Shown piece by piece: positions 31,144 through 48,735 of a DNA stretch of 49,753 bases. The notes below the pieces were generated by a model that searched no databases, was not told the DNA's origin, and saw only the letters and a list, made by a program, of their open reading frames with translations. The first letter of the stretch is position 1, and each line of letters starts with the position of its first letter. The position numbers and the translations under genes are program-made. Source of the DNA: Deltaproteobacteria bacterium (GTDB taxonomy: Bacteria > Desulfobacterota > Desulfarculia > Desulfarculales > Desulfarculaceae); the NCBI GenBank assembly GCA_020444165.1, contig JAHLLK010000042.1, forward strand, positions 1-49,753, in the 5' to 3' direction.

Positions 31144-31149
31144 GTCGGT

Positions 31150-31184
31150 TCCCCTCTCCCCGCTCCTGGCGGAGGGGGGAGAGG
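31150..31184. other. Strong hairpin between mtaA and mtaC
   Basis: CCCCTCTCCCC pairs with GGGGGGAGAGGG around GCTCCTGGCGGA, right after the mtaA stop. There is no T-tract, so it looks more like an mRNA-stabilising or processing structure than a terminator. It could adjust the mtaA to mtaC ratio. A second pair, CCGCCGC/GCGGCGG, follows at about 31196-31227. Confidence 0.5.
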
Positions 31185-31355
31185 GTCCACGGATCCGCCG
31201 CGTGGCAAGGGATTTTTGCGGCGGGTCACCATTAGCGGCTCGGAATTTACAAAATTTTATTTGGCAGGCTCTGATTGAGGTGAGAGAAGGTTTTTGCCGT
31301 AACCAGTCAAACCATTAGATTCCCGGATTCTCCGGGGCGAGAAGGGGAGGGGCCA

Positions 31356-32102: not shown

Positions 32103-32123
32103 CTGCACCTGGCAGGTGTTTAT

Positions 32124-32163
32124 TGCCCGGAGGCCCGCCCCTGGCGGGCGGGCCATCGGGCAG
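32124..32163 (+). terminator. Two-level hairpin after mtaC
   Basis: GGCCCGCC (32132-32139) pairs with GGCGGGCC (32147-32154) inside an outer TGCCCG/CGGGCA pair. Further pairs (CGGGA..GCAA/TTGC..TCCCG, about 32180-32205) follow. No T-run is attached, so termination is only likely. The rest of the 501-base gap to 32603 has GC-rich sequence, a GGAGG/CCTCC element fragment near 32540, and no gene. Confidence 0.5.
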
Positions 32164-32603
32164 GCCGTAAAACGGCCAGCGGGATCGCAAGTCTTTTGCA
32201 ACTCCCGTGTTTAGGGCGGACCGGACCAGGGATGGCCGCCCAGGAATAGGGCCATTAAGGCTCTTTTTCCAAGGTCTCCGTAGTTTTGCGGACTGGCGAA
32301 GGCACTAACCGGATTCCGGGCGGAGGGGGGTGAGCCCCGTTGGCTTGCCCCCACCGCCCAATTTTCCTATCCCCCGCGGGTTGGCCACGGGGCCCGAAAC
32401 CGAACTTAACCCAGCTTCCCTCCGGATGTTAAACTCTCTGTGACAGGGTCCCCGGCCGCGGCCCCGGGCCGCTCCGGCGCTCCCACTCACTGACGGGAAG
32501 CACAGACCGGCCCCGGGGCCCGCGCGGCCTTCCCCTGGCAGGAGGTTGAAAAAGGCCCTCCCTGGCCTCTTTCGGCAGCCTCCTAGAGAGGTTCCGTCAA
32601 GTT

Positions 32604-33581
32604 ATGGTCATCGATATTATTTTCGGCTTCTTGGGCGCTGGCAAGACCACCTTCATCAAGCGCCTGATCGAGCATCTGGCCCCCCGGGAAAAGCTGGCGG
32701 TCCTGGTCAACGAGTTTGGTGAGGTCGGCATCGACGGCCAACTCCTGTCCGGGCTGGGCGGCGAGGTGGTGGAGATGGCCAGCGGGTGCATCTGTTGCAC
32801 CATCCAGTCGGACTTCCGCAGCCAGGTGGTGGAGATCCACGACACCTTCCACCCGGCCCGTCTGGTGGTGGAGCCCACCGGAGTGGCCACCATCGGCCAG
32901 ATCCGGCACATCTTCACCTCCGAGCTGTTCGAGCCCCGGGTTTCGCGGATCAACTATATCCTGGTGGCCGACGCCGCCGGGTTCTTGAACCTCTATGCGG
33001 CCAACCGCCACTTCGTGGAGTCCCAGGTCTCCAACTCCGACCTCATCCTCTTGAACAAATGCGACCTGGTAACCCCCAAGCGGGCAGGCCTCATCGAGGC
33101 CTCCCTGGTCTCCCTGAGCCCGGCCTCCCCCATCCTCAAGACCGAGTTCGGCCGCCTGGACTGGCGGGAGTATCACGGGCTGTTGGCGGCCCGGGCCCAG
33201 GCCGACCAGCACGCCCTGGGCGCGGAGCACGAGGACGAACCCGAGCATGACCACGCGCCCGGCCCCGAGCACCACCACGAGGAAGACGCCCTGGGCTACA
33301 GCTCCTTTGGCCAGCGTTTCCCCGGCCTGGAGTTCCTGCCGCCGGCCCTGGAGAGCTTTTTCCAGGACTTGGCCGCGGGTAGCCTGGGCGAGGTGGTGCG
33401 GGCCAAGGGCATCTTCCGGACCGGGGAGGACTGGCTCCTGTGGGAGCTGGCCTCGGGGAACCTGAGCCACGAGACCGTGGCCCCCCAAGCCGAGAGCCTG
33501 GTGAGCATCATCGGCCGCGACCTGGACACCAGCCGGCTCAAGGACCAGATCTTCCGCGCGGTCAAGGGAGCCTTGCTTTGA
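32604..33581 (+). CDS. CobW/COG0523-type GTPase
   Basis: A 325-residue G3E-family GTPase. The Walker A motif is GFLGAGKT (8-15), the metal-binding CxCC motif is C62-I-C64-C65, and the guanine motif is NKCD. A His/Glu/Asp-rich loop (about 203-229) precedes the CobW C-terminal domain. Family members insert metals or support cobalamin assembly. The neighbours MtaA and MtaB are zinc enzymes and MtaC carries a corrinoid, so zinc or corrinoid delivery to them is plausible but inferred. Its stop overlaps the TTG start of the sigma-54 activator (TTGA, 33578-33581), so the two are made together. Confidence 0.88.
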   Translation: MVIDIIFGFLGAGKTTFIKRLIEHLAPREKLAVLVNEFGEVGIDGQLLSGLGGEVVEMASGCICCTIQSDFRSQVVEIHDTFHPARLVVEPTGVATIGQIRHIFTSELFEPRVSRINYILVADAAGFLNLYAANRHFVESQVSNSDLILLNKCDLVTPKRAGLIEASLVSLSPASPILKTEFGRLDWREYHGLLAARAQADQHALGAEHEDEPEHDHAPGPEHHHEEDALGYSSFGQRFPGLEFLPPALESFFQDLAAGSLGEVVRAKGIFRTGEDWLLWELASGNLSHETVAPQAESLVSIIGRDLDTSRLKDQIFRAVKGALL

Positions 33582-34939
33582 AGCAGGAAGCCAAAAAGCC
33601 GGTGGTCCTCATCGTGGACGATCCGGAGCGCTGCCTCCTGGGCCTCTCCCGGGTCATCTCCCCGGAGTCCTTTGCCCCGGTGTGGAAGTGCGGGGACACC
33701 GAGGGTCTGGCCTATCTGGCGGCCCATCCCGGCCGCGCCGCCGTGGTCATCGTGGACCAGAAGTCGGCCGGCCTGGGCGGCGGCGGCTTTTTACAGGCGG
33801 CCCGGGGCCTGGCTCCGCAAGCCTCCTTCCTGGTCACCGGCCCCCTGGGCCCCTTTCTCCTGAAGGGCGGCGAATTCTTCGAGTTCACGGGCCCCAGCCT
33901 GAAGAACACCATCAACGAGGTGCTGTGGGGGGTCCTGGCCCGGCCCGACGGCAACGGCAAGTCCCTGCCGCCCCGCCGCCCCCCGCGCCGGGGCCTGGGG
34001 GAAATCCTGGGCCAGAGCGGGGCCATGAACCGCCTCTACGAGCTGGTAGAGAACCTGGCCCCCACCAACGCCACCGTGCTGATCTCCGGCGAAAGCGGCA
34101 CCGGCAAGGAGCTGGTGGCCCAGACCATCCACCAACTTTCGGGCCGGGCCACGAAGCCCTTCGTGGCCGTGAACTGCGGGGCCATCCCGGCCGGGCTCAT
34201 GGAGAGCGAACTGTTCGGCCATGAGCGGGGCTCCTTTACCGGCGCCGTGGCCCAACGCCGGGGCAAGTTCGAGACCGCGGCCGGGGGCACCCTGTTCCTG
34301 GACGAGGTGGGCGAGTTGGACCCTTCCCTGCAAGTGAAGCTTCTCCGGGTGCTGCAGGAAAAGGAGTTCTGCCGGGTGGGCGGCGAGCGCACCCAGAAGG
34401 CCGAGGTCCGGGTTTTGGCCGCCACCAACCGTGACCTCAAGGAAGCCGTGGAGATCGGGCAGTTCCGGGAGGATCTGTACTACCGTCTCAACGTGATCCC
34501 CCTGGAAGTGCCGCCCCTCCGGGACCGCGGGGAGGACCTGGGCCTCTTGCTGGAGCATTTCCTGGGCCTGGCCGCGACGGAATTCGGCCGCCCGCTGCCG
34601 GCCATCGAGGACGAAGCCTGGCGGGCGCTCCTGAACCACAACTACCCCGGCAACGTGCGGGAACTCCGGAACCTGGCCGAGCGGATCACCGTCTCCTGCC
34701 CCTCCGGGGCGGTGAGCCTGGCCGACCTGCCGCCGGAGGTGGCGACCGCGGCCGACGCGCCGGACGCCGGCCGGGTGCTGGGCGAGCTGCCCACCGGTGG
34801 GGTCAGTCTCCGGCAGCTGGAAAAAGAGCTGATCCTCAAGACCCTGGAAAAGGCCGGGGGCAACAAGGCCGCCGCCGCGCGCATGCTGGGGGTCACCCGC
34901 CGCTTCCTCTATCTCCGCCTGGCCGAATACGCCGCTTGA
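33578..34939 (+). CDS. Sigma-54-dependent transcription activator
   Basis: A 453-residue enhancer-binding protein. A receiver-like domain (1 to about 120) keeps VDD and a candidate phospho-acceptor in VIVDQ but seems to lack the conserved lysine. The AAA+ domain (about 140-375) has Walker A GESGTGKE (near 170), the sigma-54 contact loop as GSFTGA (218-223, a common variant of GAFTGA) and FLDEVGEL. A Fis-type helix-turn-helix (about 410-453, NKAAAARMLGVTRRFLY) ends it. TTG 33578 is chosen because it overlaps the preceding stop and AAGGGAG lies eight bases upstream. The perfect sigma-54 promoter of mtaB lies just downstream, making this the obvious activator. Confidence 0.9.
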   Translation: MKQEAKKPVVLIVDDPERCLLGLSRVISPESFAPVWKCGDTEGLAYLAAHPGRAAVVIVDQKSAGLGGGGFLQAARGLAPQASFLVTGPLGPFLLKGGEFFEFTGPSLKNTINEVLWGVLARPDGNGKSLPPRRPPRRGLGEILGQSGAMNRLYELVENLAPTNATVLISGESGTGKELVAQTIHQLSGRATKPFVAVNCGAIPAGLMESELFGHERGSFTGAVAQRRGKFETAAGGTLFLDEVGELDPSLQVKLLRVLQEKEFCRVGGERTQKAEVRVLAATNRDLKEAVEIGQFREDLYYRLNVIPLEVPPLRDRGEDLGLLLEHFLGLAATEFGRPLPAIEDEAWRALLNHNYPGNVRELRNLAERITVSCPSGAVSLADLPPEVATAADAPDAGRVLGELPTGGVSLRQLEKELILKTLEKAGGNKAAAARMLGVTRRFLYLRLAEYAA

Positions 34940-34941
34940 GC

Positions 34942-34985
34942 CGGATATTTCAGGAAGACCGGGCGTCCGGCTGCGCCAATTGCCA
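34942..34985. repeat. Fragment of dispersed repeat family 2
   Basis: GATATTTCAGGAAGACCGGGCGTCCGGCTGCGCCA resembles the left border of the copy at 18415-18455 (ACATTTCTGGAAGACGGGG..CCGGCTGCGCCAGATGCC). It lies directly after the activator gene. Confidence 0.5.
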
Positions 34986-35023
34986 CCCGGCCCCCTTGAG
35001 ATATCCGGCCCTGAACACCCGCC

Positions 35024-35068
35024 GTAACCTCCGGTTACACTTATTTCTTCTCTGTCACCCTGGGTTAC
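35024..35068. promoter_or_regulatory. Two upstream activator sites of mtaB
   Basis: A perfect inverted repeat GTAACC-TCC-GGTTAC (35024-35038) is followed by an imperfect one, GTCACC-CTG-GGTTAC (35054-35068). Centres are exactly 30 bases apart, about three helical turns, and the nearer one is 110 bases before the -12 element. This is the layout of enhancer sites for a sigma-54 activator, presumably the product of the gene ending at 34939. Confidence 0.75.
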
Positions 35069-35157
35069 ATACGTCCCACCCTCCGGCCAATCCCGGGAGT
35101 ATCTTTTATTCTTTGGCAATCAAATCAGCCCCTTGACCGCCGAGCGCTCCAACCGCC

Positions 35158-35173
35158 TGGCACGGGTCTTGCT
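35158..35173 (+). promoter_or_regulatory. Sigma-54 promoter of mtaB, perfect consensus
   Basis: TGGCACGGGTCTTGCT matches the -24/-12 consensus TGGCACG-N4-TTGCW at every fixed position. Transcription should begin near 35184, giving a leader of about 75 bases before mtaB. Confidence 0.9.
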
Positions 35174-35259
35174 CCTATAGCCGCCCAAAGGTGAGGGCTC
35201 GTCACCACACCGCATCATTTTTTCAGACCGCTATATTTTTTGGGGAGAGGAGACTATTC

Positions 35260-36636
35260 ATGGCTCGTAAGAAGATAACCAAGATGGCTTATGGCAGTGG
35301 CGCGGACATGATTTTCGGTACCGCGAAGTACCCCGTCAGCACCAAGCGTGGCATGGTGATCGGCGGCGGCTATGTGAACCCGGAGGTGGTGCCCCACCCC
35401 CGTCCCGGCAGCGAGAAAACCATGAAGACCCTGCTCCGGGAGTATGAGCGGGCCAATGGCGACGCCCTGGAGAGGATGGTCATCGTGGGCCACCCCACCC
35501 TCCAGATCGAGAACGAGCACATCTTCCAGATGACCCACAACCCCAAGTGGGGCGGGGAAATCGCGGCCCAGACCGCCCGGCAGATGGATGACTACCTGGC
35601 CAAGTACGGCCTGCAGTGCGCCTACCGCGCCACCATCGCCGACCTCCGCAAGCCGGACATGGTGGACATGCGCCAGAGCGACTACACCATGGAGATCCTG
35701 GAGTCGTTCAAGGAGTGCGCCAAGCACGCGGACATCGTGTCCATCGAGTCCATGGGCGGCAAGGAAATCTTTGACCACGCCGTCATCCGCAACGACATCG
35801 CGGGCATGCTCTTCGGCATCGGCGTCCTGGGCGCCATCGACATGGAGTGGATGTGGGACCAGATCGTGGATATCGCCACCAAGGCCGGCTGTATCCCCGG
35901 TGGTGACACCAACTGCTCCGAGGCCAACACCGCCATGTTCATGGCCGGCGGCATGACCTCCAAGGATGTGCCCCACGTCATCGCGGCCCTGTGCCGGGCC
36001 ATCGCGGCCTCCCGTACCCTGGTGGCCTATGAGTGCGGCGCCACCGGCCCCTCCAAGGACTGCGCCTACGAGGACCCGATCATCAAGGCCATGTCCGGCG
36101 TACCGATCTCCACCGAGGGCAAGACCAGCGCCTGCGCCCACTCCGACCTGGCGGGCAACCTGATCATGGCGGTCTGCGACCTTTGGAGCAACGAGGCCGT
36201 GGAGTACCACGACATGTTCGGCGCCTCCACCACCTCGGTCTTCGCGGAGATCCTGGGTTACGACTGCGCCATGCTGAACTCGGCCATCGATCTGGGCTAT
36301 CAGGAGCAAATGAAGGAGATCCTGGTGAACTCCGACATGTACCGCGACTCCCACAGCCTGATCCTGGCCCCGGACAATGCCTGGAAGGTGGGCAACGCCA
36401 TCGTGTCCAACCGCAACAAGAGCAATTACGAGAGCGCCAAGGCCGGCGCCGTCATGGCCGGCCAGATCATCATGGGCGACTCCAAGATGGCCCTGACCGG
36501 CCCCGAGAAGGATGCCCTGACCAAGGCCATGAAGGACCTGGAAGGCCTGCCGGCCTCGGAAGGCGACTTCATCGACCTTTGCCTGAACAAGTACAAGAAC
36601 GTCAAGGGCTTCAATCCCAAGTCCTACGGGCTGTAG
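35260..36636 (+). CDS. mtaB: Methanol:corrinoid methyltransferase
   Basis: A 458-residue MtaB that transfers the methyl group of methanol to MtaC-bound Co(I). The three zinc ligands known from the Methanosarcina enzyme (Glu164, Cys220, Cys269) appear here as E163 (SIESMGG), C219 (DTNCSEA) and C268 (SKDCAYED), a constant offset of one, so the active site looks intact. The length is normal. GGGGAGAGGAG precedes the ATG. It has its own sigma-54 promoter and is separated from mtaC by the GTPase and activator genes, an unusual order since mtaB and mtaC are often adjacent. Confidence 0.96.
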   Translation: MARKKITKMAYGSGADMIFGTAKYPVSTKRGMVIGGGYVNPEVVPHPRPGSEKTMKTLLREYERANGDALERMVIVGHPTLQIENEHIFQMTHNPKWGGEIAAQTARQMDDYLAKYGLQCAYRATIADLRKPDMVDMRQSDYTMEILESFKECAKHADIVSIESMGGKEIFDHAVIRNDIAGMLFGIGVLGAIDMEWMWDQIVDIATKAGCIPGGDTNCSEANTAMFMAGGMTSKDVPHVIAALCRAIAASRTLVAYECGATGPSKDCAYEDPIIKAMSGVPISTEGKTSACAHSDLAGNLIMAVCDLWSNEAVEYHDMFGASTTSVFAEILGYDCAMLNSAIDLGYQEQMKEILVNSDMYRDSHSLILAPDNAWKVGNAIVSNRNKSNYESAKAGAVMAGQIIMGDSKMALTGPEKDALTKAMKDLEGLPASEGDFIDLCLNKYKNVKGFNPKSYGL

Positions 36637-36662
36637 GCCAAGCCTGACATCCCCTGGCCATT

Positions 36663-36708
36663 GGGCGGGCGGGACGGAGCGGACGGGTTCCGCTCCCCCC
36701 GCCCGCCC
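36663..36708 (+). terminator. Large hairpin after mtaB
   Basis: GGGCGGGCGG (36663-36672) pairs with CCGCCCGCCC (36699-36708), enclosing a second pair GGAGCGG/CCGCTCC. There is no T-run directly after it. It may terminate or stabilise the mtaB mRNA. Confidence 0.55.
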
Positions 36709-36773
36709 TCCTTGTACGAGGCAAAAAACCCAGCGCAAGGATATTCATTGCCCTGCTCCGGGGCCAACCAACC

Positions 36774-37060
36774 GGGGCCAGGCTTTTTTGTCGCCCCTGG
36801 GCGCGGCGAAGATCCGGGGCCAGGCTTTTTGGTCGCCCCGGGGCGCGGCGACGATTCCGGGCCAGGCTTTTTGGTCGCCCCTGGGCGCGGCGACGATTCC
36901 GGGCCAGGCTTTTTGGTCGCCCCTGGCGCGGCGACGATCCGGGGCCAGGCTTTTTCCCCCCTGGGCGCAGCGGTGATCCGGTGCTAGGCTTTTTTTAGGC
37001 CCCGGTCCAGGGCGAAAATCCGACGCCAGGTTTTTTTGTTCCCCCGAGGCGCGGCGACGA
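36774..37060. repeat. 42-bp tandem repeat, about seven copies
   Basis: A unit CCAGGC-TTTTT-GGTCGCCCCTGGGCGCGGCGACGATCCGGGG recurs with the CCAGGC core at 36778, 36820, 36862, 36904, 36945, 36984 and 37026 (periods 42, 42, 42, 41, 39, 42). The middle copies are nearly identical and the outer ones decayed. It fills most of the 530-base gap between mtaB and the zinc-ribbon gene. Open frames on both strands here are repeat artefacts. Confidence 0.93.
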
Positions 37061-37166
37061 ACCAAATACGAGGCTAGCTCATGATCCTGCTTCCCCGGCC
37101 CCCGCTCCGGCTCTGCCCGGCGGCCTTCACCGCCGAACCCTCCGGCCCGTGGCGGGAGCCCCGGGC

Positions 37167-37364
37167 GTGAAAGCCTGCCAAAAATGCGGCAACTGGCACC
37201 TGCAGGCCGAAAAGGTCGCCGGGCATCGGTTATCTTGCGACCAAGTGAAGAAGCATTGGGCCGCGGTGAAAAGAAAACACTACGAATCCTACGGCCACCG
37301 GGCCCAACCGGTGACCAACCCCGCGGGCTGGTACGTGTGCGCCACCTGCGGGCGCCCGTTGTGA
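37167..37364 (+). CDS. Small zinc-ribbon-like protein
   Basis: A 65-residue protein with two CxxC pairs (C4/C7 and C58/C61) framing a basic middle part, plus C24, likely to bind one zinc. It ends with CATCGRPL. GTG 37167 is chosen because GGGAG lies eight bases upstream; GTG 37149 would add six residues. I do not recognise the family. It lies about 100 bases before the RamA-like gene and may belong to the methanol system, but it could equally be an unrelated small gene. Confidence 0.55.
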   Translation: MKACQKCGNWHLQAEKVAGHRLSCDQVKKHWAAVKRKHYESYGHRAQPVTNPAGWYVCATCGRPL

Positions 37365-37461
37365 AAATACTTTTATTGGCCGGCACAGCGGCCGTCCCAT
37401 TTTTTACCCCCGCGTTTGCCCGACGGGGCCACCAGGCTCCGTTGGGGGAGGTGAGCCAAAC

Positions 37462-39159
37462 ATGAAACGCTACGGCGTGGCCCTGGACCTGGGCACCAGC
37501 GGATTCCGCGGCCAGGCCCTGGACCTGCAACAGGACGGAGCCATTCTCGCCACGGCGGTGACCAGCCGCCACCCCCTGCCGGGGGCCAATGTGATGGACC
37601 ATATTCATTTCACCCTGGAAGTCGGCTCGGAGACGGCCCAGGAGATCATGATCGGGGCGGTGAACCTGGTGCTGGAGCAGCTGGGCATCGACCTGACCGG
37701 CGTGGAGCGCCTGGCCATCTGCGGCAACCCCATCCAGCTTTCCCTGTTCCAGGGCATCGAGATCCGCGATTTGGCCTTTGCCGGCCAGCGCAAGCTGGAT
37801 TCCCTGGGGGTGGTGCCGCCCAAACGGGACGCCCACGTGGCCAACGTGGACCGCTTTCCGGGCCTGAAACTGCCGCCCCACGCCGAGGTGCTGGTGCCGC
37901 CGGCGGTCCGCCATGAGATCGGGGCCGACGCCCTGGCCATGATGTTGCAGACCGGCATGCTGCACAAGGAAGAAACCGCCCTGGTCACCGACTACGGCAC
38001 CAACGCCGAGATGGCCCTGATCCACAAGGGCGTGGTGTACACCGGTTCCACCGCCGCCGGCCCGGCCCTGGAAGGCCAGCACATCGAGGACGGCATCCTG
38101 GCCCTGCCCGGGGCCATCTCCGACGTGGAGTTCCTGCCTTCCTCCGCCCGCTCCGCCGGCCCGGTGCGCTCCGACCGGCCTCTGCCGGGCGAGTTCGCCA
38201 CCACGGTGCTGGACGAGGAGATGCGAGGCCGCCCGGGGGATCAGGTGGACCCGGTGACCGGCCGGGTGTCCGTGGAAGGCGAGCTGGAAGCAGTGGGCAT
38301 CACCGGCACCGGGGTGGTGGCTCTCTTGAGCCAGGGCATCCGGGGCCAGCTCGTCACCCTGCCCCGCATAAACACCACCGACGCCGAGATCCACCTGCCC
38401 CAGGACCTGAAGTTCACCGAGACCGACCTCAAGGAAGCGGGCAAGGCCATCGGCTCCATCCGGGCCGGGCACCTGACCCTGTGCCTGGAAGCCGGCATCG
38501 AGATGAAAGAGGTGGTCACGGCCTACATGTCCGGCGCCTCGGGCACCTATGTGGACGCCCTGAAGGCCCGGGAGTTGGGCATGGTGCCACCCCTGGTGGA
38601 GCGCATCTACCAGGTGGGCAACACCTCCCTGGCCATGGCCCGGGACATGGCCGCCGATCCGGACAAGCTGTGGATGTTGCAGGACGTGGCCGACCATTTG
38701 CGCCAGCACCACTGCATGTTCGCCGCCTCCAAGGTCTTTGAGAAGGTCTACATCCTGGAGCTGGCCTACTGGACCGAGGGCATGCCCGACGCCCAGTATG
38801 ACAAGTTCCTCAAAAAGTACGGTTTCCCGCCCAAGCCCACCCTGGGCGAGCCGCCGGAGGTCATCAAGACCGTGGAGCGGGACATCCCCGATTTCGGCCC
38901 TGGCGGGCTCCGGATCATCCGGGATATCGGCATCCGCAAGGACTGGCATTTCGAGGGCTGCACCGGCTGCGGCTCCTGCGTGGAGGAATGCCCCGAAAAG
39001 GCCATCCTCCTGGCCGAGGACGGCGAAACCTGGCGGGTGTCCCTGGACACCTCCCTGTGCAACGGCATCGCCTGCCGGCGTTGCGAGCGCATCTGCCCGG
39101 AAAAGGGCTTCGACTTGGTGGCCCTGTTCACGGGAGGGGCGGCCAAGCGGGAGTTCTGA
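37462..39159 (+). CDS. RamA-like corrinoid protein reductive activase
   Basis: A 565-residue ASKHA-fold protein with a C-terminal ferredoxin domain, the design of RamA, which uses ATP and electrons to return inactive Co(II) corrinoid proteins to Co(I). The N-terminus (GVALDLGTSGFRGQ) and VTDYGTNAEMAL are ATPase motifs. Two [4Fe-4S] sites are at C500/C503/C506/C510 and C533/C538/C541/C545; the second has an extended CxxxxC spacing. The substrate is probably MtaC 5 kb upstream. GGGAGGTGAGCC precedes the ATG. The next gene begins 13 bases after the stop, indicating an operon. Confidence 0.9.
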   Translation: MKRYGVALDLGTSGFRGQALDLQQDGAILATAVTSRHPLPGANVMDHIHFTLEVGSETAQEIMIGAVNLVLEQLGIDLTGVERLAICGNPIQLSLFQGIEIRDLAFAGQRKLDSLGVVPPKRDAHVANVDRFPGLKLPPHAEVLVPPAVRHEIGADALAMMLQTGMLHKEETALVTDYGTNAEMALIHKGVVYTGSTAAGPALEGQHIEDGILALPGAISDVEFLPSSARSAGPVRSDRPLPGEFATTVLDEEMRGRPGDQVDPVTGRVSVEGELEAVGITGTGVVALLSQGIRGQLVTLPRINTTDAEIHLPQDLKFTETDLKEAGKAIGSIRAGHLTLCLEAGIEMKEVVTAYMSGASGTYVDALKARELGMVPPLVERIYQVGNTSLAMARDMAADPDKLWMLQDVADHLRQHHCMFAASKVFEKVYILELAYWTEGMPDAQYDKFLKKYGFPPKPTLGEPPEVIKTVERDIPDFGPGGLRIIRDIGIRKDWHFEGCTGCGSCVEECPEKAILLAEDGETWRVSLDTSLCNGIACRRCERICPEKGFDLVALFTGGAAKREF

Positions 39160-39769: not shown

Positions 39770-40313
39770 GGCTCCGCCCCGCCCTCCCCCGGCCCGGCCG
39801 GGAGGCGCGGGGCCGGGCCTGAGCCGGAACCACCGACTGCTGCCCGCGACGCGGGGCCGGTCTGCTTCGGGAATCGGGGCTCCGGCCCTCCCGGAGCCAG
39901 GCCCGGTCGCGGCCAGGGGCCCGGCTGGGCTCCTTGTTTACGCCGGTTTTCCAACCCTCTGGGCGCGGGTCTCCCCCGGCCCCTCCACCCCTGGTGGTGA
40001 CCGACGATTGACCTGGTAATCAATCCCGCGATAAGATGAATGACCCGCCCGGCCTGCCGCGGCGCCGCGGGGAGAGGCGGCGGCCGCCCGGCGGAGCCGG
40101 GGAACGCTTTGTTTCCCCCGGGCTCTCCCGCGCCGGAGGTCGGGCCCGGAGGCGGCGTGGGCTGCGTCTCCCTGGCGGAAGGCCGGCCGCCAGCCTGGCG
40201 CGCCCTTTCTCCCTGCCCTATCCCCTGGCCTCCGACCTCGCCCGCCTTGCGAGGGGCCAAGTGGCTCCAACCGAGACCCAACCAGTCCCTACCCCAGCTT
40301 GGGAAGGCAGCAT
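39770..40313. other. GC-rich intergenic region
   Basis: No gene, repeat or clear promoter was recognised in these 544 bases. A few short GC-rich inverted repeats occur, as expected from composition. Confidence 0.6.
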
Positions 40314-42041
40314 ATGGCAAAGACGAACGAAATCCGCGGCTGGTCCATCGGCAGCAAGATCGTGGCGGCCCAATTGTTAATCGCCCTGGGGCTCATCGCC
40401 ATCTTCTTTGTGCTTTACGCCTGGAAATCCCGCCAGGATTCCCTGGCGCAGTACGTGGACAAGGCCCGCACCCTGACCCTGGCGGCCGAGAGCGCCCGCG
40501 AAGAGATGGACGCCAAATGGGCCCTGGGCCTGTTCACCTTGGAGCAGATGCGCCGCTACGGGAACACCGGCCAGACCGACAAGCTCCTGGCCACCGTGCC
40601 GGTGGTCACGGCCTGGCAGACGGCCATGCGCAAGGCCCACGAGGGCCACTACACCTTCCGCGTGGCCAAGTTCTCCCCCCGCAATCCGGCCAACCAGCCC
40701 ACCCCCCTGGCCGCCGCCGCCCTGCGGGAGATGAAGGCCAAGGGCCTGGACGAGTATTACGTGCTGGACCCGGCCGGCGACAGCGTGCACTACTTCCGGG
40801 CGGTGCGTCTGAGCCGCACCTGCCTGGTCTGCCACGGCGACCCGGCCACCAGTAAAGCCCTGTGGGGCAATGACCAGGGCCTGGACATCACCGGCACCCG
40901 CATGGAAGGCTGGGAAGACGGCTCCATGCACGGCGCTTTCGAGGTGATCCAGTCCTTGGCCCCGGCCCACGCCGCCCTCCGGCGGAACCTCCTGGCCGCG
41001 GCCGGGGTCGCCCTGGCCGTGGTGGCCCTGGGCTTTTTGGTGAGCCTGGTCACCGCCCGGGGCCTCAGCCGGCCCATCCGCCAAGCCACCCAGTTCCTGG
41101 GCCAGGCCGCGGAAGGCGACTTCACCGCCCGGCCCCTGCCGGCCCACCTGACCCGGGGAGACGAACTCGGTGAAATGACCCGCCACCTGGAACACATGAA
41201 CTCCTCGCTGAGCCGCACCGTGGCCGCGGTCTCCGAAGCCGCACAGACCGTGACCCAGGGCGCGGAGGAGATCAGCGTGGGCAACCAGGACCTGGCCCAA
41301 CGCACCCAGAGCCAGGCCAGCGCCATCGAGCAGACCGCCAGCGCCCTGGAGGAACTCACCGGCTCGGTGAAGCAGAACGCGGCCAACAGCTCCTATGCCA
41401 ACGATCTGGCCGGCAAGGCCGCCGACTTGGCCACCCAGGGCGGCCAGGCGGTGGAGCGCACCGAGCAGGCCATGGCCCAAGTGACCGAGTCCAGCAAGAA
41501 AATCGCCGACATCATCAGCGTGGTGAACGAGATCGCCTTCCAGACCAACCTCCTGGCCTTGAACGCCGCGGTGGAGGCGGCCCGGGCCGGCGAAGCCGGC
41601 CGCGGCTTCGCCGTGGTGGCCCAGGAAGTGCGCAAGCTGGCCGGCCGCAGCGCCTCGGCCGCCAAGGAGATTCAGGGGCTCATCACCGACAGCGTGGCCA
41701 AGGTCGGCCTGGGCAACCAGATGGTGGCCGAGAGCGGCCGGCTCCTCCGGGAGATCGTGTCCGGGGTGCGGGAAGTGACCCAAACCGTCAACGAAATCAG
41801 CGCGGCCAGCCAAGAGCAGGCCCTGGGCATCGACGAGATCAACCGGGCCGTGGCCATGATGGACGACGGCGTCCAACAAAACGCCGCCCTGGTGGAACAG
41901 GCCGCCGCCGCCAGCGCCTCCCTGGCCGACTCGGCCGGCGACCTGCTGAGCCAAATGGACCGCTTCCGCATCCGCCCCCCAGAGGACGAGGACCCGCCCC
42001 CGCCCCGGGCCCTGCTGACGGAGGGCAAAGAGAAAGCCTAA
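40314..42041 (+). CDS. Methyl-accepting chemotaxis protein with c-type haem sensor domain
   Basis: A 575-residue chemoreceptor. A first membrane helix (about 22-42) leads to a periplasmic DUF3365/Tll0287-like domain containing a haem-attachment motif CLVCH (C170, C173, H174), then a second membrane helix (about 225-248), a HAMP domain and a standard signalling domain (about 310-545) with the conserved hairpin [20 protein letters not shown]. Haem-containing receptors of this kind are known from Geobacter and relatives and sense redox potential or gas ligands. It is monocistronic. The G-tract hairpin at 42066 follows directly. Confidence 0.9.
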
Positions 42042-42065: not shown

Positions 42066-42113
42066 TGTGGGGGGAAACCCCTTTTTGTGAACAAAAAGGG
42101 GTTTCCCCCCACA
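42066..42113. repeat. Long G-tract hairpin, copy C
   Basis: TGTG6-AAA-CCCC-T5-GT (42066-42088) pairs perfectly with 42091-42113, so the 23-bp stem leaves only two unpaired bases. The right flank (CCCCCTTCCCCCAAAAAACTTTAGTG) is the inverse of copy B's left flank at 9705-9725. It may end the chemoreceptor transcript. Confidence 0.85.
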
Positions 42114-42495: not shown

Positions 42496-42861
42496 CTAAT
42501 CCCAGCGGAGGGCGAGCGCCACCACCGTGTCGCCATCGTAGGAGAGGCTCACCTGGAGCGCCGGGCCGCCGGCCCCGGCCGCCCGGGAGCCTCGCCAGGC
42601 CACGGTGGGTTCGCCCCGCGCGCCCCGGCCCACCTCCAGATCCCGGAAGTCGGCGCCTTCCTGCCAGGCCGAGTCCAGGGCCTTGAACACCGCCTCCTTC
42701 ACCGCGAACGCCGTGGCGTAATGCCGCGCCGGGTCGCGGCTGGCCGCGGCCCGGTCCCTCTCCGCCGGGGTGAACACCCGCGCCAGGAACACCTCCCCCG
42801 AGCGGGCCACGGCCTCCCGCACCCGGCTGAGCAAGAGCACATCCACCCCTACCCCCGGCAT
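42496..42861 (-). CDS. acpS: Holo-[acyl-carrier-protein] synthase
   Basis: A 121-residue AcpS-type phosphopantetheinyl transferase that moves phosphopantetheine from CoA to a serine of ACP. It has GVDVLLLSRV at the start and the catalytic FAVKEAVFKAL. The later SISH motif reads SLSY. GGAGG lies four bases before the ATG, inside ackA: the two genes overlap by 13 bases (42849-42861). As the last gene of the operon that also encodes an ACP, its natural substrate is probably that ACP. Whether the genome has another acpS for fatty acid synthesis cannot be seen here. Confidence 0.87.
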   Translation of the reverse strand: MPGVGVDVLLLSRVREAVARSGEVFLARVFTPAERDRAAASRDPARHYATAFAVKEAVFKALDSAWQEGADFRDLEVGRGARGEPTVAWRGSRAAGAGGPALQVSLSYDGDTVVALALRWD

Positions 42862-44102
42862 GCGGCCTCCGCCCCGGCGGCCAGGCCCGCCTCCCCGGCC
42901 CAGCCCGCGGCCAGGCGGGCCGTTTCCCGGGCGATCATCAGCTCTTCGTCCGTGGGGATCACCAGCACCGTGACCGGCGCGCCGGCCGGGCTGATGGCCC
43001 GCTCGCCCGTGGCCGGGGCCTCGTTCAGGGCCGGGTCCAGGGCCACCCCGGCGAACTCCAGCCTCTCCAGGCAGCGCCGCCGCACCAGGGGCGAGTTCTC
43101 GCCGATGCCCCCGGTGAAGACCACCAGGTCCAGCCCGCCCAGCACGGCGGCATAAGCCCCGAGGTATTTCCGCACCCGGTAGGTGAACATGTCCAGGGCC
43201 AAGGCGCACTGGGCATGCCCGTTGGAGGCCAGGTCGGAGATGCACCGCACGTCGTTGGTCACCCCCGACACCCCCCGGAGCCCGGCTTCCTGGTTCAACA
43301 TCCGGTCCACCTCGGCCAGGCCCATCCCCAACTCCCGCTGGAGATACAGCACCACCCCCGGGTCCAGGTCGCCGCAGCGGGTGCCCATCATCACCCCTTC
43401 CAGGGGAGTGAAGCCCAGGCTGGTGTCCACGCTCTGGCCGTCCTGCACCGCGGCCACGGTGCAGCCATTGCCCAGATGGCAGATGACCATGCGCCGGGGC
43501 GGCGGCCCGCCCCCCCAGCGAGCCGCCCGCCCGGCCACATAGGCGCAGGAGGTCCCGTGGAAGCCGTACTTGCGGAGGCCGTGGCGCTGGTAAAGCTCAT
43601 AGGGCAGAGCGTACAGGAAGGCCCGGGGGGGCATGGTCTGGTGAAAGGTGGTGTCGAACACCCCTACCTGAGCCGCCCCGGGCAAAAGTTCCCGCGCCGC
43701 GGCGATGCCGGCCAGGTTGGCCGGGTTGTGCAGGGGGGCCAGGGGGATGCAGGCCGTGAGCTTGGCGATGACCTCCTCGTCGATGAGCACCGAGCCCGTG
43801 AACTTGTCCCCGGCGTGCACCGTGCGGTGGCCCACCGCGCCCACCTCGGCCAGGCTGGCCAGCACCCCGGCCTCCGGGCGCACCAGGGCGGCCATGATGG
43901 CGGCCAGGCCGGCGGGATGGTCCGGCCGGTCCAGGCGCTCCCGCCACTCCCCGGCCGGGGTGGACAGGCTGAGCGCGGAGGTGGGCTGGCCCAACTCGGC
44001 CACCAGGCCCCAGGCCAGCCGGGCGGGCTCCGCGCCGGGGCGCTCCTCGAACAGGCTGAACTTGATGGAGGAGCTGCCGCAGTTGATGACCAGGAGTTTC
44101 AT
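42849..44102 (-). CDS. ackA: Acetate kinase
   Basis: A 417-residue acetokinase-family enzyme that makes ATP and acetate from acetyl phosphate (or the reverse). It shows the N-terminal LLVINCGSSSIKFSLF, GHRTVHAG, VFDTTFHQTMPPRAFLYALP, HLGNGCTVAAV and FTGGIGENSPLVRR. One oddity is the second family signature, usually YGFHGTSH, which reads YGFHGTSC. This could shift substrate preference to another acyl phosphate. The gene starts one base after the pta stop and overlaps acpS at its end, so it is in the middle of a tight operon. Confidence 0.95.
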   Translation of the reverse strand: MKLLVINCGSSSIKFSLFEERPGAEPARLAWGLVAELGQPTSALSLSTPAGEWRERLDRPDHPAGLAAIMAALVRPEAGVLASLAEVGAVGHRTVHAGDKFTGSVLIDEEVIAKLTACIPLAPLHNPANLAGIAAARELLPGAAQVGVFDTTFHQTMPPRAFLYALPYELYQRHGLRKYGFHGTSCAYVAGRAARWGGGPPPRRMVICHLGNGCTVAAVQDGQSVDTSLGFTPLEGVMMGTRCGDLDPGVVLYLQRELGMGLAEVDRMLNQEAGLRGVSGVTNDVRCISDLASNGHAQCALALDMFTYRVRKYLGAYAAVLGGLDLVVFTGGIGENSPLVRRRCLERLEFAGVALDPALNEAPATGERAISPAGAPVTVLVIPTDEELMIARETARLAAGWAGEAGLAAGAEAACRG

Positions 44103-44103
44103 G

Positions 44104-45099
44104 TCAATCCCGCGCCGCCACCAGGAGCGCCGCCCCGGTCACGTCCTCGGCCGTGGCCCCCCGGGAGAGGTCGCTCACCGGCCGGGCGAAACCCTGCAAC
44201 ACCGGGCCGTAGGACTTGGCCCCGGCCAGGCGCTGCACCAGCTTGGCCGCGATGTTGGCCGCATCCAGGTCCGGGAAGATGAGGATGTTGGCCCGCCCGG
44301 CCACGGGGCCCACCGCCCCGGTCTTTTTCTGGGCCACGGCCGGCACCAGGGCCGCGTCGGCTTGCAGCTCGCCGTCAAGGAGCAGGTCCGGGGCCTTGGC
44401 CCGGGCCAGGGCCACGGCCCGGGCCACCTTGTCCACCCGGGCATGGGCGGCGCTGCCCCGGGTGGAAAAGGACAGCAGCGCCACCCGGGGCTCCCAGCCC
44501 AAAAGCTCCCGGGCGCTCTGGGCCGTGGCCACGGCGATGTCCGCCAACTGGGCCGGGTCCGGGTCCGGGTTCACGGCCGGGTCGGCAAAGATGATCCGGC
44601 CCTCCTCGCCGCCGGGGTAGCCGGCCAGTTCCATGACGAAGAAGCTGGAAGCCAGGCTGAGGCCGGGCCGGAGGCCGATGCACAGTTCGCTGGCCATGAT
44701 GACCTCCTCGGTGGGGCAGGCGATGCCGGCCACCAGGCCGTGGGCGTCGCCGGCCCGGACCATCATGCCGGCCAGGCACAAGGGCTGGGCCAGGATGCGC
44801 CGGGCCGCCCCGGCCGGCAGGTCCCGGGCCGCGCACAGGGCGTCCAGGTACTCCGCCCCCCGGGGCGGGTCAGCCGGCGGGATGATCTCCACCCCGGCCA
44901 GGTCACGGGCCAAGTCCAGGCCCACCCGCCCGGCCGCCTCCCGCATCGCCGCGGGATCGCCCAGAAGGAGCGGCCGGGCCAGGCCCCCGGCGGCCAGGGC
45001 GCCGGCCGCGGCCAGGATCACCGGGTCCTCTCCCTCGGGAAAGACGATGGCCCGCGCGGATTCCCGGGCCTTGGCGGCCAAAAACGCCTGCAAATCCAT
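44104..45099 (-). CDS. pta: Phosphate acetyltransferase
   Basis: A 331-residue class I phosphotransacetylase that exchanges an acyl thioester (normally acetyl-CoA) with phosphate. Family segments are present: [10 protein letters not shown] at the start, [38 protein letters not shown] and [13 protein letters not shown] near the C-terminus. The ATG at 45099 is preceded by GGAGGGTGAAGAC. It lies 83 bases after the ACP gene and one base before ackA. With an ACP and a thiolase in the same operon, acyl-ACP rather than acyl-CoA as substrate should be considered, but nothing in the sequence proves it. Confidence 0.94.
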
Positions 45100-45182
45100 G
45101 TCTTCACCCTCCCGGCCTCCAAGGGGGGCCGAGGAAGGGGGGGCCGGAGCCCCCCCGGTTGCGGCTGCCCGCGCAGCCGGGC

Positions 45183-45425
45183 TCACATCTTCGCTTGCAC
45201 CAGGGCCACCACCTCGCCCACGGTCCCCGGCTTGCGGATGTCGAAGTTGCTGATCTCCACCCCCAGGCGGTCTTCCAACAGGGCGGCCAACTCGATGCGG
45301 CTCACCGATTTCAGGCCCAGGTCCTCGGCCAGCCGGGTGTCGGGGCCCAGTTCGCCGGGCTCCCGCTTGGCGATCCTGGCCACGATCTCTTGCACCACGG
45401 CGGCCGCTTGTTCCTTGTCCGCCAT
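45183..45425 (-). CDS. Acyl carrier protein
   Basis: An 80-residue acidic helical ACP. The phosphopantetheine serine is S40 in [13 protein letters not shown]. The residue before it, normally Asp (DSL), is Lys39 and the one after is Val, so this is not the housekeeping fatty-acid ACP. It starts one base after the DUF35 gene. Its placement between a thiolase/DUF35 pair and pta-ackA-acpS suggests a carrier dedicated to this pathway. Confidence 0.9.
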
Positions 45426-45426
45426 G

Positions 45427-45828
45427 TCACGCCACCTTGAAGGCCAGGACGTTGAGCCCGCCCACGTCCCGGATGTCCGGCTCCACCGCACAGGGCCCCC
45501 GCTCGAAAAAGCCCTGGAGGGTGGCCGGGTCCACCGCCACCCCGGTGATGATGGCCTGCACGTACACGCCTTCCTCGAGGCGGATGTGTCCGTAGGCGTA
45601 GGGGGCGATCTCCGCGAAGCGGGGGTTGGGCGGCGGGGCCATGCCGTGGGACACGTACAAGAGGTTGCCCCGGCCGGAAAGCTCGGCCGATTCCTGGTCC
45701 GGGCTGCCGCAGGCCTCGCAGGCCGTGGTGGGCGGGAAGGTCACCGCCCCGCACTGGCGGCATTTTTTCCCCAGGAGCTTGCCTTGCCCCAGGGCGTCGT
45801 AATACTGCTTGATGATGGATTCCGGCAT
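45427..45828 (-). CDS. DUF35 zinc-ribbon/OB-fold protein
   Basis: A 133-residue protein with an N-terminal rubredoxin-like zinc ribbon (C23, C26, C37, C40) and a C-terminal OB fold. Such proteins bind next to thiolases and HMG-CoA synthases and are thought to let acyl-CoA intermediates pass between subunits. The gene starts one base after the thiolase stop, so a complex of the two is very likely. Confidence 0.92.
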   Translation of the reverse strand: MPESIIKQYYDALGQGKLLGKKCRQCGAVTFPPTTACEACGSPDQESAELSGRGNLLYVSHGMAPPPNPRFAEIAPYAYGHIRLEEGVYVQAIITGVAVDPATLQGFFERGPCAVEPDIRDVGGLNVLAFKVA

Positions 45829-45829
45829 G

Positions 45830-47110
45830 TCAGTTCCCTCCGTTGAGCACCAGGACGGTGCTGATCATGGCGTAGCCGTGGGTGTGGATCACCGCGACTT
45901 CCGGGGCCTGTTTGATCTGCCGCGCCCCGGCCAGGCCCCGAATCTGCTTCACCGCCTCGTAGGTGTCCGAGCCGGCGCTGGCCGCCCAGGCGTGGCCAAA
46001 GGCGTGCCGCCCGCCGTGGGTGCTCATGGGGCGGTCGCCGTCAAAGCGCAGCCGGCCCTCCTCGGCGTACTTGAGGCCCTGGCCCGCCGGCAGATAGCCC
46101 GCGGTCTCGGCCACGCAGACGCCCATGATGTGGGAGCAGTCGTGGGTGTGCAGGTAGTTGATGTCCCCGGGGGAGATGCCGGCCATGGCGTAGGCCTTCT
46201 GGAAGGACTCGCGGTCAATGGGCATCAGGGTGGGGTCGTCGGTGTACCAGGGGAGATCCATGACGCTGATGCCGAAGCCGGCCAGGCGCACCGGCGCGGA
46301 GGCCTTCGCGTTGATGGCCTCCTTGCCGCCCAGCACGATGGCCGAGGCCCCGTCGGCCGGGGTGACCACGCTGTAGAGCCGGGAGGGCCAGGCCACGTGG
46401 GGGTTGTAGCGGGAACTCCAGAACTCGCCCACCTCGTTGAAGCCCAGGCCCTTGGCCTCGTCCTCCAGGGTCTGGTTGCGGATGGCCTTGGGGTTCAGGG
46501 AGCCGTGCAGCCGCCGGGTCTGGCACACGCCCAAAAGCCCCCGGTCCAGCTCCTCCAGGCTGAGGCCGTATTTGCGGCAATAGCCCAGGGCGTTGAACCC
46601 GTTGTAGGTGGGGAAGATGTCATAGCCCTGGGGCACGCTGTAGGCCTGGCCCACGCAGTAGTCGGTCCAGAGCCACATCTCCTCGGTGGGGATTGTCCCC
46701 CGCTCATAGGGCGAGAGGTTCTGGGGCTGGCTCAGGGTGGATTCCAGGCCCACCACCAATACCCGCTCGTACACCCCGGAGGCGATGCCCATGGCGGCCA
46801 TGGTCACCCCCACGTTGGTGGTGGAGCAGGCCGCGTCAAAGTGCACCCCGGCCTTGAATTTGGTCCCCAGCCACTTGGCGAGCTGGCTGTAGGTGGCCGG
46901 CAGTTGGCTGGTGTGCATGGTCACGTTGCCCACGAACACGGCATCCACGTCCTGGGGCCCCAGCCCGGCGTCGGCCAGGGCTTCCTGGGCGGCCCGGGCG
47001 GCCAGCTCCTGCAGGCTGAGCCCCTTGATCTCCGGGGTTTCCAAGAGATTGCCGAATTTGGTGCATCCCACTCCCAGGATGTAAATCGGCTCCTTTAACT
47101 GGCTTTTCAC
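45830..47110 (-). CDS. Thiolase-family protein (SCP-x-like)
   Basis: A 426-residue thiolase-fold enzyme. The nucleophilic cysteine is C95 in DAACSTTNV. Later motifs are HTHDCSHIMG and a GH pair in HAFGHAWAAS; the C-terminal motif reads HTHGYAMIS, without the usual CxG cysteine, as in the SCP-x/acetyl-CoA acetyltransferase-like branch that works with DUF35 proteins. It probably forms or cleaves a beta-ketoacyl thioester. GTG 47110 is the start, with AAGGAG seven bases upstream; upstream in-frame sequence has no domain. It is the first gene of the six-gene operon. Confidence 0.88.
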   Translation of the reverse strand: MKSQLKEPIYILGVGCTKFGNLLETPEIKGLSLQELAARAAQEALADAGLGPQDVDAVFVGNVTMHTSQLPATYSQLAKWLGTKFKAGVHFDAACSTTNVGVTMAAMGIASGVYERVLVVGLESTLSQPQNLSPYERGTIPTEEMWLWTDYCVGQAYSVPQGYDIFPTYNGFNALGYCRKYGLSLEELDRGLLGVCQTRRLHGSLNPKAIRNQTLEDEAKGLGFNEVGEFWSSRYNPHVAWPSRLYSVVTPADGASAIVLGGKEAINAKASAPVRLAGFGISVMDLPWYTDDPTLMPIDRESFQKAYAMAGISPGDINYLHTHDCSHIMGVCVAETAGYLPAGQGLKYAEEGRLRFDGDRPMSTHGGRHAFGHAWAASAGSDTYEAVKQIRGLAGARQIKQAPEVAVIHTHGYAMISTVLVLNGGN

Positions 47111-47781
47111 GGCGTTGCTCCTTGAGGGGTTTAAGTTTTCACGTCCGGCTTTGCCGAGCGGGCCGGGCGGGCCCAGCGCCGGCCCCAAGGCGTAGCAACC
47201 CTGTCGCGTCCGGCTGGTTTTTCCGGGCGCTAAATGATCGGGACAATCAAGCATGTCCGGCTTGATCCCAGGCGGAAATGCCGCGTGATTTACGGTCATA
47301 ATCGCGGCAAACCCGCCCAAGTGTCAACGCTCAAAGAGTGCTGGCAAGGTACTAGGAAAGTGCTAGGTAGGCATGGCTTTTTTGTGGTTTATCTGTTTGT
47401 TATAAACTTGCTTGGCGGAAGGTACGGCGCGGTGCGAGAGCGGTGGCGCGAGGTGCGCATTCATATTTACCCTGACTTTGCGGCCCTGGCCATACTTTTT
47501 TAAGGGAGGTTGTTAGATGTAACTTTGATGTTTTATTGCTGCGGCTGGATAGCCCCGTTGGCCGCGACCTTACCGTATACCGGTCCGGAAGATTCGGAGA
47601 GATAGGCCGGAGACCATCAGCCATCGTGCGCGGCGATCCCATCAGGCGATCCGCCGCTATTGTCCGCTTGACTTTAGCGAATGGCGTATTCTAGGCTGGA
47701 ACATTCAGCAGGAGATAGGAGAGAGCGCGAAGGAGGGGGGCCAACGCCACGCCGCAAACCGTGGCGGGAAGGAAGGCGGGC
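47111..47781. other. Divergent control region between the thiolase operon and a PAS-LuxR gene
   Basis: 671 bases, less GC-rich in the middle. It contains an operator-like inverted repeat (47246-47266) and a hairpin TGCCGCGTGATT/AATCGCGGCA (about 47280-47309). A plus-strand frame at 47234-47503 overlaps both and has no recognisable character. A GGCCGGAGACC near 47602 resembles part of a B12 box but lacks supporting structure. Confidence 0.6.
47246..47266. promoter_or_regulatory. Operator-like inverted repeat before the thiolase operon
   Basis: ATCAAGC (47246-47252) and GCTTGAT (47260-47266) form a perfect 7-7-7 inverted repeat, about 136 bases upstream of the thiolase GTG. It could bind the divergent PAS-LuxR regulator, but it might also be a chance hairpin. 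Confidence 0.4.
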
Positions 47782-48735
47782 ATGATCGGCGAACCAGGCT
47801 TTGAGCAACTGCTGCAACGCATCACCGAGTTGGAGCACAACGTGCTCCAACCTTCGGGAGCCGAGGACTACCACGTCTGGGAGAAGGTCTTCAACCGCCC
47901 CCTGGTGGACAGCCTGCCCGCCGGGCTGGCCTTCTATGACAACGACCTGAACCTCCTCATGCACAACCAGAGCTACCACGAATTCCTGCGGGTCTACTCC
48001 CCCGTGCAGGCCGAGCACTACGTGGGGCTCAACCACTACTACCTGAAGCCGGGCAGCAAGGGGTTCTCCGAGGAGCTGTTCCGTTTCGTGACCCACGCCC
48101 GCAGCGCCCGCACCTGCTATGACTTCCACCTGGAGATCGACATGGGCCCGGCCCCCCAGGGCAGCTTCTGGGACGTGCACCTCTCGCCGGTCACCGACTC
48201 CCGAGGCAGCCTGCGGGGGCTGTTGATGTTCTGCCTGGACCTGACCCACCGTAAATTGGCCCGGCAGGTGAGCCTGGCCGGCGAGGGCTGGGACGAGGCC
48301 GGCGAGGCCGGCTCCGAGGAGCTGAAGGCCGCGCTCCGCACCGTGCTCCGCCTGCGGGAGGAGGAAAAGCAGGACTCCCAGGAGCGGCTCCTGTCCCGGA
48401 TGAACAGCCTGGTGCTGCCCTACATCGAGCGCCTGAAATCCACCAGCCTGGACCCGGAGCAGAAGACCTATCTGCAAATCCTGGAGAGCAACCTGAGCCA
48501 GCTCCTCTCCCCCGATCCCCCGGCCGCCTTCTCCACCTACAGCCGCCTCACCCCCCGGGAGCTGGAGATCGCCGACCTGATCCGCGATGGCAAAACCAGC
48601 AAGACCATCGCGCACCTCCTCCGGGTGTCCAAGGCCAACGTGGAGTTCCACCGCCTGAACATCCGGAAGAAACTGAGGTTGGACAACCAGAAGGTTAACC
48701 TGCGGTCCTATCTATTGGCCATGGGGAGGTGTTGA
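47782..48735 (+). CDS. PAS-LuxR transcription regulator, divergent from the thiolase operon
   Basis: A 317-residue regulator with a PAS-like domain (about 40-165: GLAFYDNDLNLLMHNQSY, SPVTDSRGSLRGLLMFCLD), a charged helical linker and a C-terminal LuxR-type helix-turn-helix (about 252-312: LTPRELEIADLIRDGKTSKTI, ANVEFHRLNIRKKL). It shares its layout and the NLRSYLLA ending with the regulator at 28657. ATG 47782 is chosen because AAGGAAGG lies five bases upstream; GTG 47761 is an alternative. Divergent placement suggests it controls the thiolase operon. Confidence 0.87.
   Translation: MIGEPGFEQLLQRITELEHNVLQPSGAEDYHVWEKVFNRPLVDSLPAGLAFYDNDLNLLMHNQSYHEFLRVYSPVQAEHYVGLNHYYLKPGSKGFSEELFRFVTHARSARTCYDFHLEIDMGPAPQGSFWDVHLSPVTDSRGSLRGLLMFCLDLTHRKLARQVSLAGEGWDEAGEAGSEELKAALRTVLRLREEEKQDSQERLLSRMNSLVLPYIERLKSTSLDPEQKTYLQILESNLSQLLSPDPPAAFSTYSRLTPRELEIADLIRDGKTSKTIAHLLRVSKANVEFHRLNIRKKLRLDNQKVNLRSYLLAMGRC

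Follow-up and report, generated by a model that had tools for sequence, protein, structure and literature searches.

A conserved six-gene operon that probably encodes an acyl carrier protein-based variant of the Pta-AckA pathway

Textbooks treat the formation of ATP from thioesters by substrate-level phosphorylation as chemistry of coenzyme A (CoA). A locus on contig JAHLLK010000042.1 of a Deltaproteobacteria bacterium of the Desulfarculaceae (assembly GCA_020444165.1) raises the question of whether another thiol carrier can serve in its place. The window, which is the whole stretch of 49,753 nucleotides analysed here, contains an operon in which genes for a phosphotransacetylase (Pta) and an acetate kinase (AckA) are joined to genes for a thiolase, a DUF35 protein, an acyl carrier protein (ACP) and a holo-ACP synthase (AcpS). 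Judged from sequence, the operon is probably a conserved ACP-based variant of the Pta-AckA pathway, and the proposal that ACP, not CoA, is the thiol carrier of its Pta is well supported by the comparisons described below. The fuller reading, an ACP-tethered and ATP-conserving pathway of acetyl cleavage, in which use of acetyl-ACP by Pta, the direction and the substrate class are all inferred, is held with moderate confidence. Replacement of CoA by ACP, if true, would give cells a second, separate thioester currency for ATP formation and would offer engineers an insulated acyl pool.

The operon and its distribution

All six open reading frames lie on the minus strand, in the order thiolase, DUF35, ACP, Pta, AckA, AcpS:

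45830-47110, minus strand: thiolase of the SCP2/archaeal type, 426 amino acids (Thiolase_N and Thiolase_C_1; nucleophile Cys95, HDC at 323-325, His373)
45427-45828, minus strand: DUF35 protein, 133 amino acids, probable thiolase partner (zf-ChsH2 and OB_ChsH2_C, a ChsH2-type zinc ribbon and OB fold)
45183-45425, minus strand: dedicated ACP, 80 amino acids, with a Lys-Ser attachment motif and a net charge of −3 (PP-binding)
44104-45099, minus strand: Pta variant without the CoA-phosphate contacts, 331 amino acids (PTA_PTB)
42849-44102, minus strand: AckA (acetate kinase), 417 amino acids (Acetate_kinase; TIGR00016)
42496-42861, minus strand: AcpS variant (holo-ACP synthase), 121 amino acids (ACPS)

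The thiolase begins at a GTG codon with AAGGAG immediately 5′ of it; the intergenic gaps are 1, 1, 83 and 1 bases, followed by a 13-base overlap. Pfam places all six proteins in the families named, above their cut-offs, and re-reading of the open reading frames reproduced exactly the gene set, positions and gaps given in a preliminary description of this DNA.

Comparison with genome contigs relied on 41 thiolase loci (numbered L; genomes, G) found via two exact peptide patterns, and the list is for that reason incomplete. The 119 listed thiolase relatives (of 360 matches, the window's own entry counted) are 62-83% identical to the window protein, and the genome loci reach down to 55%. An ACP gene adjoins the thiolase gene in nine of the 41 loci. 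The complete six-gene order is repeated in L002 (titled Deltaproteobacteria) and in L003 and L004 (Chloroflexi, Anaerolineales), and a third Chloroflexota genome (L005) carries the first five genes up to a contig end, with AckA and AcpS terminating another of its contigs. The L007 operon is interrupted by a contig end past ACP, and among the shortened or reordered forms of Bacillota and Actinomycetes, gene order is rearranged in L009 (Actinomycetes) and L012 (Syntrophomonadaceae). Compared by eye, 12 of the 119 listed Pta relatives have contigs identical in length to those of listed thiolase relatives and probably share them. The co-occurrence check thus bore out the six-gene set of the preliminary description, since its order is not unique to this strain and recurs in other phyla; conservation in several phyla also rules out a chance neighbourhood. 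Viral sequences yielded one pattern match, which is not a relative, and plasmids yielded one record above 60% identity, from Paracoccus ferrooxidans, with thiolase and DUF35 only. Additional thiolase and DUF35 pairs lie near the first in L009 (15050-16749) and L010 (2542-4229), their thiolases being about 40% identical to that of the window, and thiolase frames are broken in L011, L026 and L037, either truly or through sequencing error.

The window AckA exceeds the TIGR00016 cut-off (448.4 against 293.4). The operon copy is the only acetate kinase found in five of eight genomes (G001-G004, G007), and the operon Pta the only Pta found in four (G002, G003, G004, G007), absences that are soft because most of these genomes are draft metagenome-assembled genomes; the reading of acetate formation from genomes would change with them if the ACP-based reading is true. 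Full acetate kinases are encoded elsewhere in G005 and G006, whose operons lack AckA, and G008 has two.

The phosphotransacetylase and its carrier

The window Pta belongs to PTA_PTB (PF01515; 308.4 bits, cut-off 24), falls below the NCBIfam pta equivalog cut-off (277.2 against 311.2) and has a predicted model (predicted local distance difference test score, 91.3) with the Pta fold, matching 6iow at template-modelling scores of 0.88-0.92. It was aligned with 119 listed relatives (the best of 7960 matches) and four solved Ptas, using M. thermophila numbering. The R133 site, Arg in all four solved references, is Met, Leu, Ile, Thr or Val in 120/120 Ptas of this set, all of which also carry a three-residue deletion directly past R87, in the loop for the CoA 3′-phosphate, although the exact placement of this gap varies between alignments. 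Three of the references have the whole loop; the fourth, 1vmi, is missing two loop residues and has the Arg equivalent to R133. Thus neither mark of a CoA-dependent Pta, a basic residue at 133 or an intact 3′-phosphate loop, was found in any of the 120. The catalytic residues S309 (119/120), R310 (119/120) and D316 (117/120) are maintained, and the window Pta has all three. Retention of these residues together with altered CoA-phosphate contacts suggests that catalysis is retained and that contacts to a part of CoA absent from ACP are weakened. In the Pta of P. gingivalis (PgPta), the CoA 3′-phosphate is held by Arg89 and Lys92 and the β-phosphate by Arg135, with 58% of activity lost in the R89 mutant and 21% in the R135 mutant (PMC6461089), and in a malic-enzyme PTA domain, acetyl-CoA binding was abolished on mutating an Arg that touches the 3′-phosphate (PMC7902834).

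Linkage of Pta to ACP was surveyed in whole genomes from the phyla of G001, G003 and G005 (395, 400 and 398 genomes, 1193 together; cut-offs 1e-70, 1e-70 and 1e-75). The resulting 52 Pta loci (22, 3 and 27, respectively) were examined for ACP or AcpS in flanks reaching at most 1.5 kb. One or the other was present beside 7 of 9 Ptas with a non-basic residue at R133 and beside none of 43 basic ones (Fisher p 2.7e-7); excluding the three genomes that seeded the survey, the counts are 4/6 against 0/43 (p 7e-5). An additional class survey of 85 genomes gave four matches, G001 among them: L084 is non-basic with ACP/AcpS, L083 is non-basic and shows neither gene anywhere on its contig of 10.7 kb, and L085 is basic, again with neither. 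The preliminary suggestion that this Pta acts on acetyl-ACP stands in part, as loss of R133, the loop deletion and the ACP/AcpS linkage all lend it support at the level of sequence.

A second kind of module contains the same core. AcpS, Pta, a butyrate-kinase-like enzyme and ACP occur together in L111, L113 and L115, and likewise in L112, where AcpS and ACP are fused as one protein; in L114 the contig ends past Pta and AcpS. None of these stretches gave a thiolase match. Genes for an S15-type hydrolase, a flavin mononucleotide (FMN) reductase and an Fe-S/flavin oxidoreductase are confirmed by Pfam in L084/L115 and L083, with similar frames in most others, and transporter genes lie alongside, a TRAP gene in L115 (by Pfam) and ABC-transporter-like genes in L111 (by eye). 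Recurrence of the ACP, AcpS, Pta and kinase set without a thiolase is the strongest reason to suppose a unit that converts acyl-ACP to acyl phosphate and then to ATP.

The window ACP has a PP-binding domain (PF00550) with the attachment Ser and scores 34 against TIGR00517, the ACP of fatty-acid synthesis, under the cut-off of 70.45. Eleven module ACPs fall below this cut-off (26.5-66.8 bits), and a housekeeping ACP lies above it in 11/11 genomes tested, so that the operon ACP as a mere housekeeping ACP is rejected for the relatives. The attachment motif is Lys/Arg-Ser in 10/10 thiolase-operon ACPs and in the four ACPs examined from second-type modules, as against Asp-Ser in 12/12 housekeeping ACPs, and the net charge of the matched region is 0 to −7 (n=9) in module ACPs and −12 to −20 (n=12) in housekeeping ones; three other ACPs below the cut-off have Asp-Ser and charges of −10 to −12. 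This reading of motif and charge left out 15 of 41 ACP matches.

The synthase has changed as well. The window AcpS lies under the TIGR00516 acpS cut-off (55.9 against 59.8) and above that of the broader TIGR00556 (65.7 against 45.35). Thirteen module AcpS proteins were compared, eight of the thiolase kind (including that of L052, which lies away from its operon and was counted by similarity) and five of the second kind. All 13 have another residue in place of the canonical S-x-S-H His, followed by Asp or Glu, and 12 lack the Arg that precedes FAAKEA. Six other AcpS-type copies keep the His in 5/6 (Phe in L044) and the Arg in 5/6 (Asn in L043), and none has the acidic residue; five further matches (L045, L046, L050, L053, L059) were left out of this comparison. 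Additional AcpS-type copies in six of eight genomes (G002-G005, G007, G008) speak against the operon AcpS being the housekeeping one; the two other matches of G001 lie in frames of 251 and 1158 amino acids, and G006 has only one of 244. By these sequence signs, ACP and AcpS have diverged together as a private pair. Their description as dedicated is upheld by the separate housekeeping ACPs, the extra AcpS-type copies, the shared divergence and the one fusion.

Flanking and regulatory features

Several further features surround or interrupt the operon:

45100-45182, minus strand: gap between ACP and Pta, with predicted RNA hairpins (folding of seven operon loci)
42066-42113, minus strand: 20-pair inverted repeat, terminator-like, downstream of the operon
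47298-47327, minus strand: sigma-70-like promoter match upstream of the thiolase, 10/12 positions, weak evidence
47761-48735, plus strand: PAS and LuxR-type regulator, divergent from the operon

The ACP-Pta gap is the sole wide gap of the window operon. A hairpin of at least eight pairs is predicted there in six of the seven operon loci folded (window, L002, L003, L004, L006, L008), L005 being looser; shuffling gave z of −2.22 for the window and −2.96 to −4.76 for L002, L003, L004 and L006, and sequence conservation between loci is not obvious. Such a hairpin may keep ACP and thiolase levels above those of Pta, AckA and AcpS. Upstream of the thiolase, one sigma-70-like match was found against 0.4 expected in shuffles. 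Where the window has the PAS and LuxR-type regulator, an AraC-type one is encoded in L002, L003, L004, L006 and L008; Pfam identifies AraC_binding_2 and a helix-turn-helix domain (HTH) in the regulators of L002 and L037, and L003, L004, L006 and L008 carry similar neighbours. A chemoreceptor with a Tll0287-like sensor domain (40299-42041, plus strand) is encoded beyond the inverted repeat and oriented towards the operon. Farther away, at 30142-39159 (plus strand), lies a methanol methyltransferase set of MtaA-like, MtaC-like and MtaB-like proteins, a CobW-like GTPase and a sigma-54 regulator; the Mta-like proteins fall short of the equivalog cut-offs, and a corrinoid activase of the RamA type, also encoded there, scores above its own.

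Proposed pathway, alternatives and known systems

In the proposed pathway, AcpS would attach phosphopantetheine to its own ACP. Cys95 of the thiolase, acting with DUF35, would attack the acetyl carbonyl of a β-dicarbonyl (C-acetyl) substrate, release the rest of the molecule and transfer the acetyl moiety to the thiol of ACP. Phosphorolysis of acetyl-ACP by the altered Pta would then give acetyl phosphate, from which AckA would form acetate and ATP. Use of ACP would separate this thioester pool from acetyl-CoA and from the ACP of fatty-acid synthesis. No paper listed in searches of the open-licence PubMed Central (PMC) literature, those on thiolases and acetylacetone included, describes an ACP-dependent Pta or such an operon, as judged by title and abstract opening. 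We would extend the proposal, with middling confidence, to a portable module of Lys/Arg-Ser ACP, its own AcpS, CoA-independent Pta and acyl kinase, by which anaerobes would draw on an acyl-ACP pool of their own for substrate-level phosphorylation, apart from CoA and the fatty-acid ACP, using at least two acyl-cleaving front ends (thiolase with DUF35; S15-type hydrolase with flavoproteins).

Residues C95, H323, D324, C325, G372 and H373 of the thiolase are invariant in 32 aligned sequences, and the protein resembles, also in fold matches, SCP2 thiolases, BbsB, a thiolase of Pyrococcus and the archaeal complex; an HDCF motif with a catalytic Cys is described for SCP2 thiolases (PMC12329534). Because the six genes include no ligase or dehydrogenase, the simplest substrate would be a ready-made C-acetyl or β-dicarbonyl compound, and the β-ketoacyl thioester of the preliminary description is at most a candidate, there being neither enzyme among the six to make one. 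ACP-associated (n=10) and pair-only (n=30) thiolases differ at several columns (L126 in 8/10 against R in 28/30; Q128 in 8/10 against K/R in 29/30; E218 in 10/10 against R/K in 20/30; E350 in 8/10 against R in 26/30; L011, L013 and L026 left out). These differences are compatible with a changed carrier, are confounded by kinship and are given little weight.

Pta might still use CoA, with ACP serving the thiolase only (e.g., by keeping hold of the rest of the acyl chain) and the Pta changes being tolerated drift. Several observations pull in this direction and away from an ACP-dependent Pta: Arg87, the 3′-phosphate ligand, is retained in 105/120 Ptas, in an alignment that is uncertain beside the deletion; mutation of the R133 equivalent was mild in PgPta, at the 21% loss cited above, and the authors of that study place the probable active site elsewhere (PMC6461089); and no ACP or AcpS was found near the non-basic Ptas of L117, L118 and L083, the first two (G649, G530) having Glu at the R133 site with a shortened loop and forming the earliest branches of the non-basic group. 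In the four of eight genomes without any other Pta found, the operon enzyme may need to serve CoA too. A rapidly built tree of 73 Ptas, in which the trait columns were kept, places all 25 non-basic sequences in one group (support 95), so the association is essentially of single origin and the p-values overstate independence. The operon also lacks AckA in L006 (Geosporobacter) and both AckA and AcpS in L008 (Sinanaerobacter), whose genome has a single 244-amino-acid AcpS-superfamily protein only, and in 32/41 loci, mostly Proteobacteria with thiolase and DUF35 alone and several on short contigs, no ACP adjoins the pair, which presumably can therefore use another acceptor. A CoA-using Pta is nevertheless judged unlikely, given that the Pta changes are fixed in 120/120 and that Pta accompanies ACP/AcpS also where no thiolase is seen, a link that a thiolase-only role for ACP cannot explain.

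The direction could also be biosynthetic, since the Pta and AckA reactions are reversible: AckA and Pta would load ACP from ATP and acetate, and thiolase with DUF35 would then C-acetylate an acceptor, like the PhlABC acyltransferase. A dedicated ACP is equally compatible with this scheme, and PhlC, a thiolase-like fold match with a DUF35 partner, is reported to C-acylate phenols (PMC6392133). Against it, no PhlA/HMGS-like partner was found among the six operon genes and the four neighbours scanned, acetyl-CoA would presumably be a cheaper donor, and uptake and breakdown are a better match for the AraC-type regulators beside the relatives' operons and for the transporter genes that accompany the second module. 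We lean on these grounds towards the catabolic direction and regard synthesis as improbable. A group other than acetyl, such as propionyl or substituted acetyl, might be carried instead, as AckA falls within the broad acetate/propionate kinase subfamily TIGR00016 and the second module has a butyrate-kinase-like enzyme. The window Pta is far closer to phosphotransacetylases than to phosphotransbutyrylases (279.5 against 61.4 bits), which makes this very doubtful, and such a change would alter the substrate and not the ACP principle.

Among known systems, PlsX is an acyl-ACP:phosphate acyltransferase with a role in lipid synthesis, not ATP formation. The proposed Pta chemistry would be identical (acyl-ACP and phosphate to acyl phosphate), but PlsX is of another family: PF02504 gives no match to the window Pta, and three relatives score below its cut-off (24.0-25.8 against 29.1). 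PhlABC/PpATase likewise pairs a thiolase-like PhlC with the DUF35 protein PhlB, and is reported both to add acetyl groups to carbon and to remove them by way of acetyl-Cys, independently of CoA (PMC6392133); it differs in that PhlA is missing here, the ACP/Pta/AckA chain is present and the fold matches have 19-20% identity. The benzoylsuccinyl-CoA thiolase BbsAB and the archaeal thiolase/HMGCS/DUF35 complex have the thiolase and DUF35 pair and a common fold, whereas their substrates are CoA thioesters and the window proteins score far under the equivalog cut-offs (BbsB, 91.9 against 750; BbsA, 28.9 against 250). The Pta-AckA pathway itself shares both enzyme families, the catalytic residues and the product logic with this operon, in which the carrier would instead be a dedicated ACP, the CoA-phosphate contacts of Pta are altered, and AcpS and the thiolase/DUF35 pair are linked to the two enzymes.

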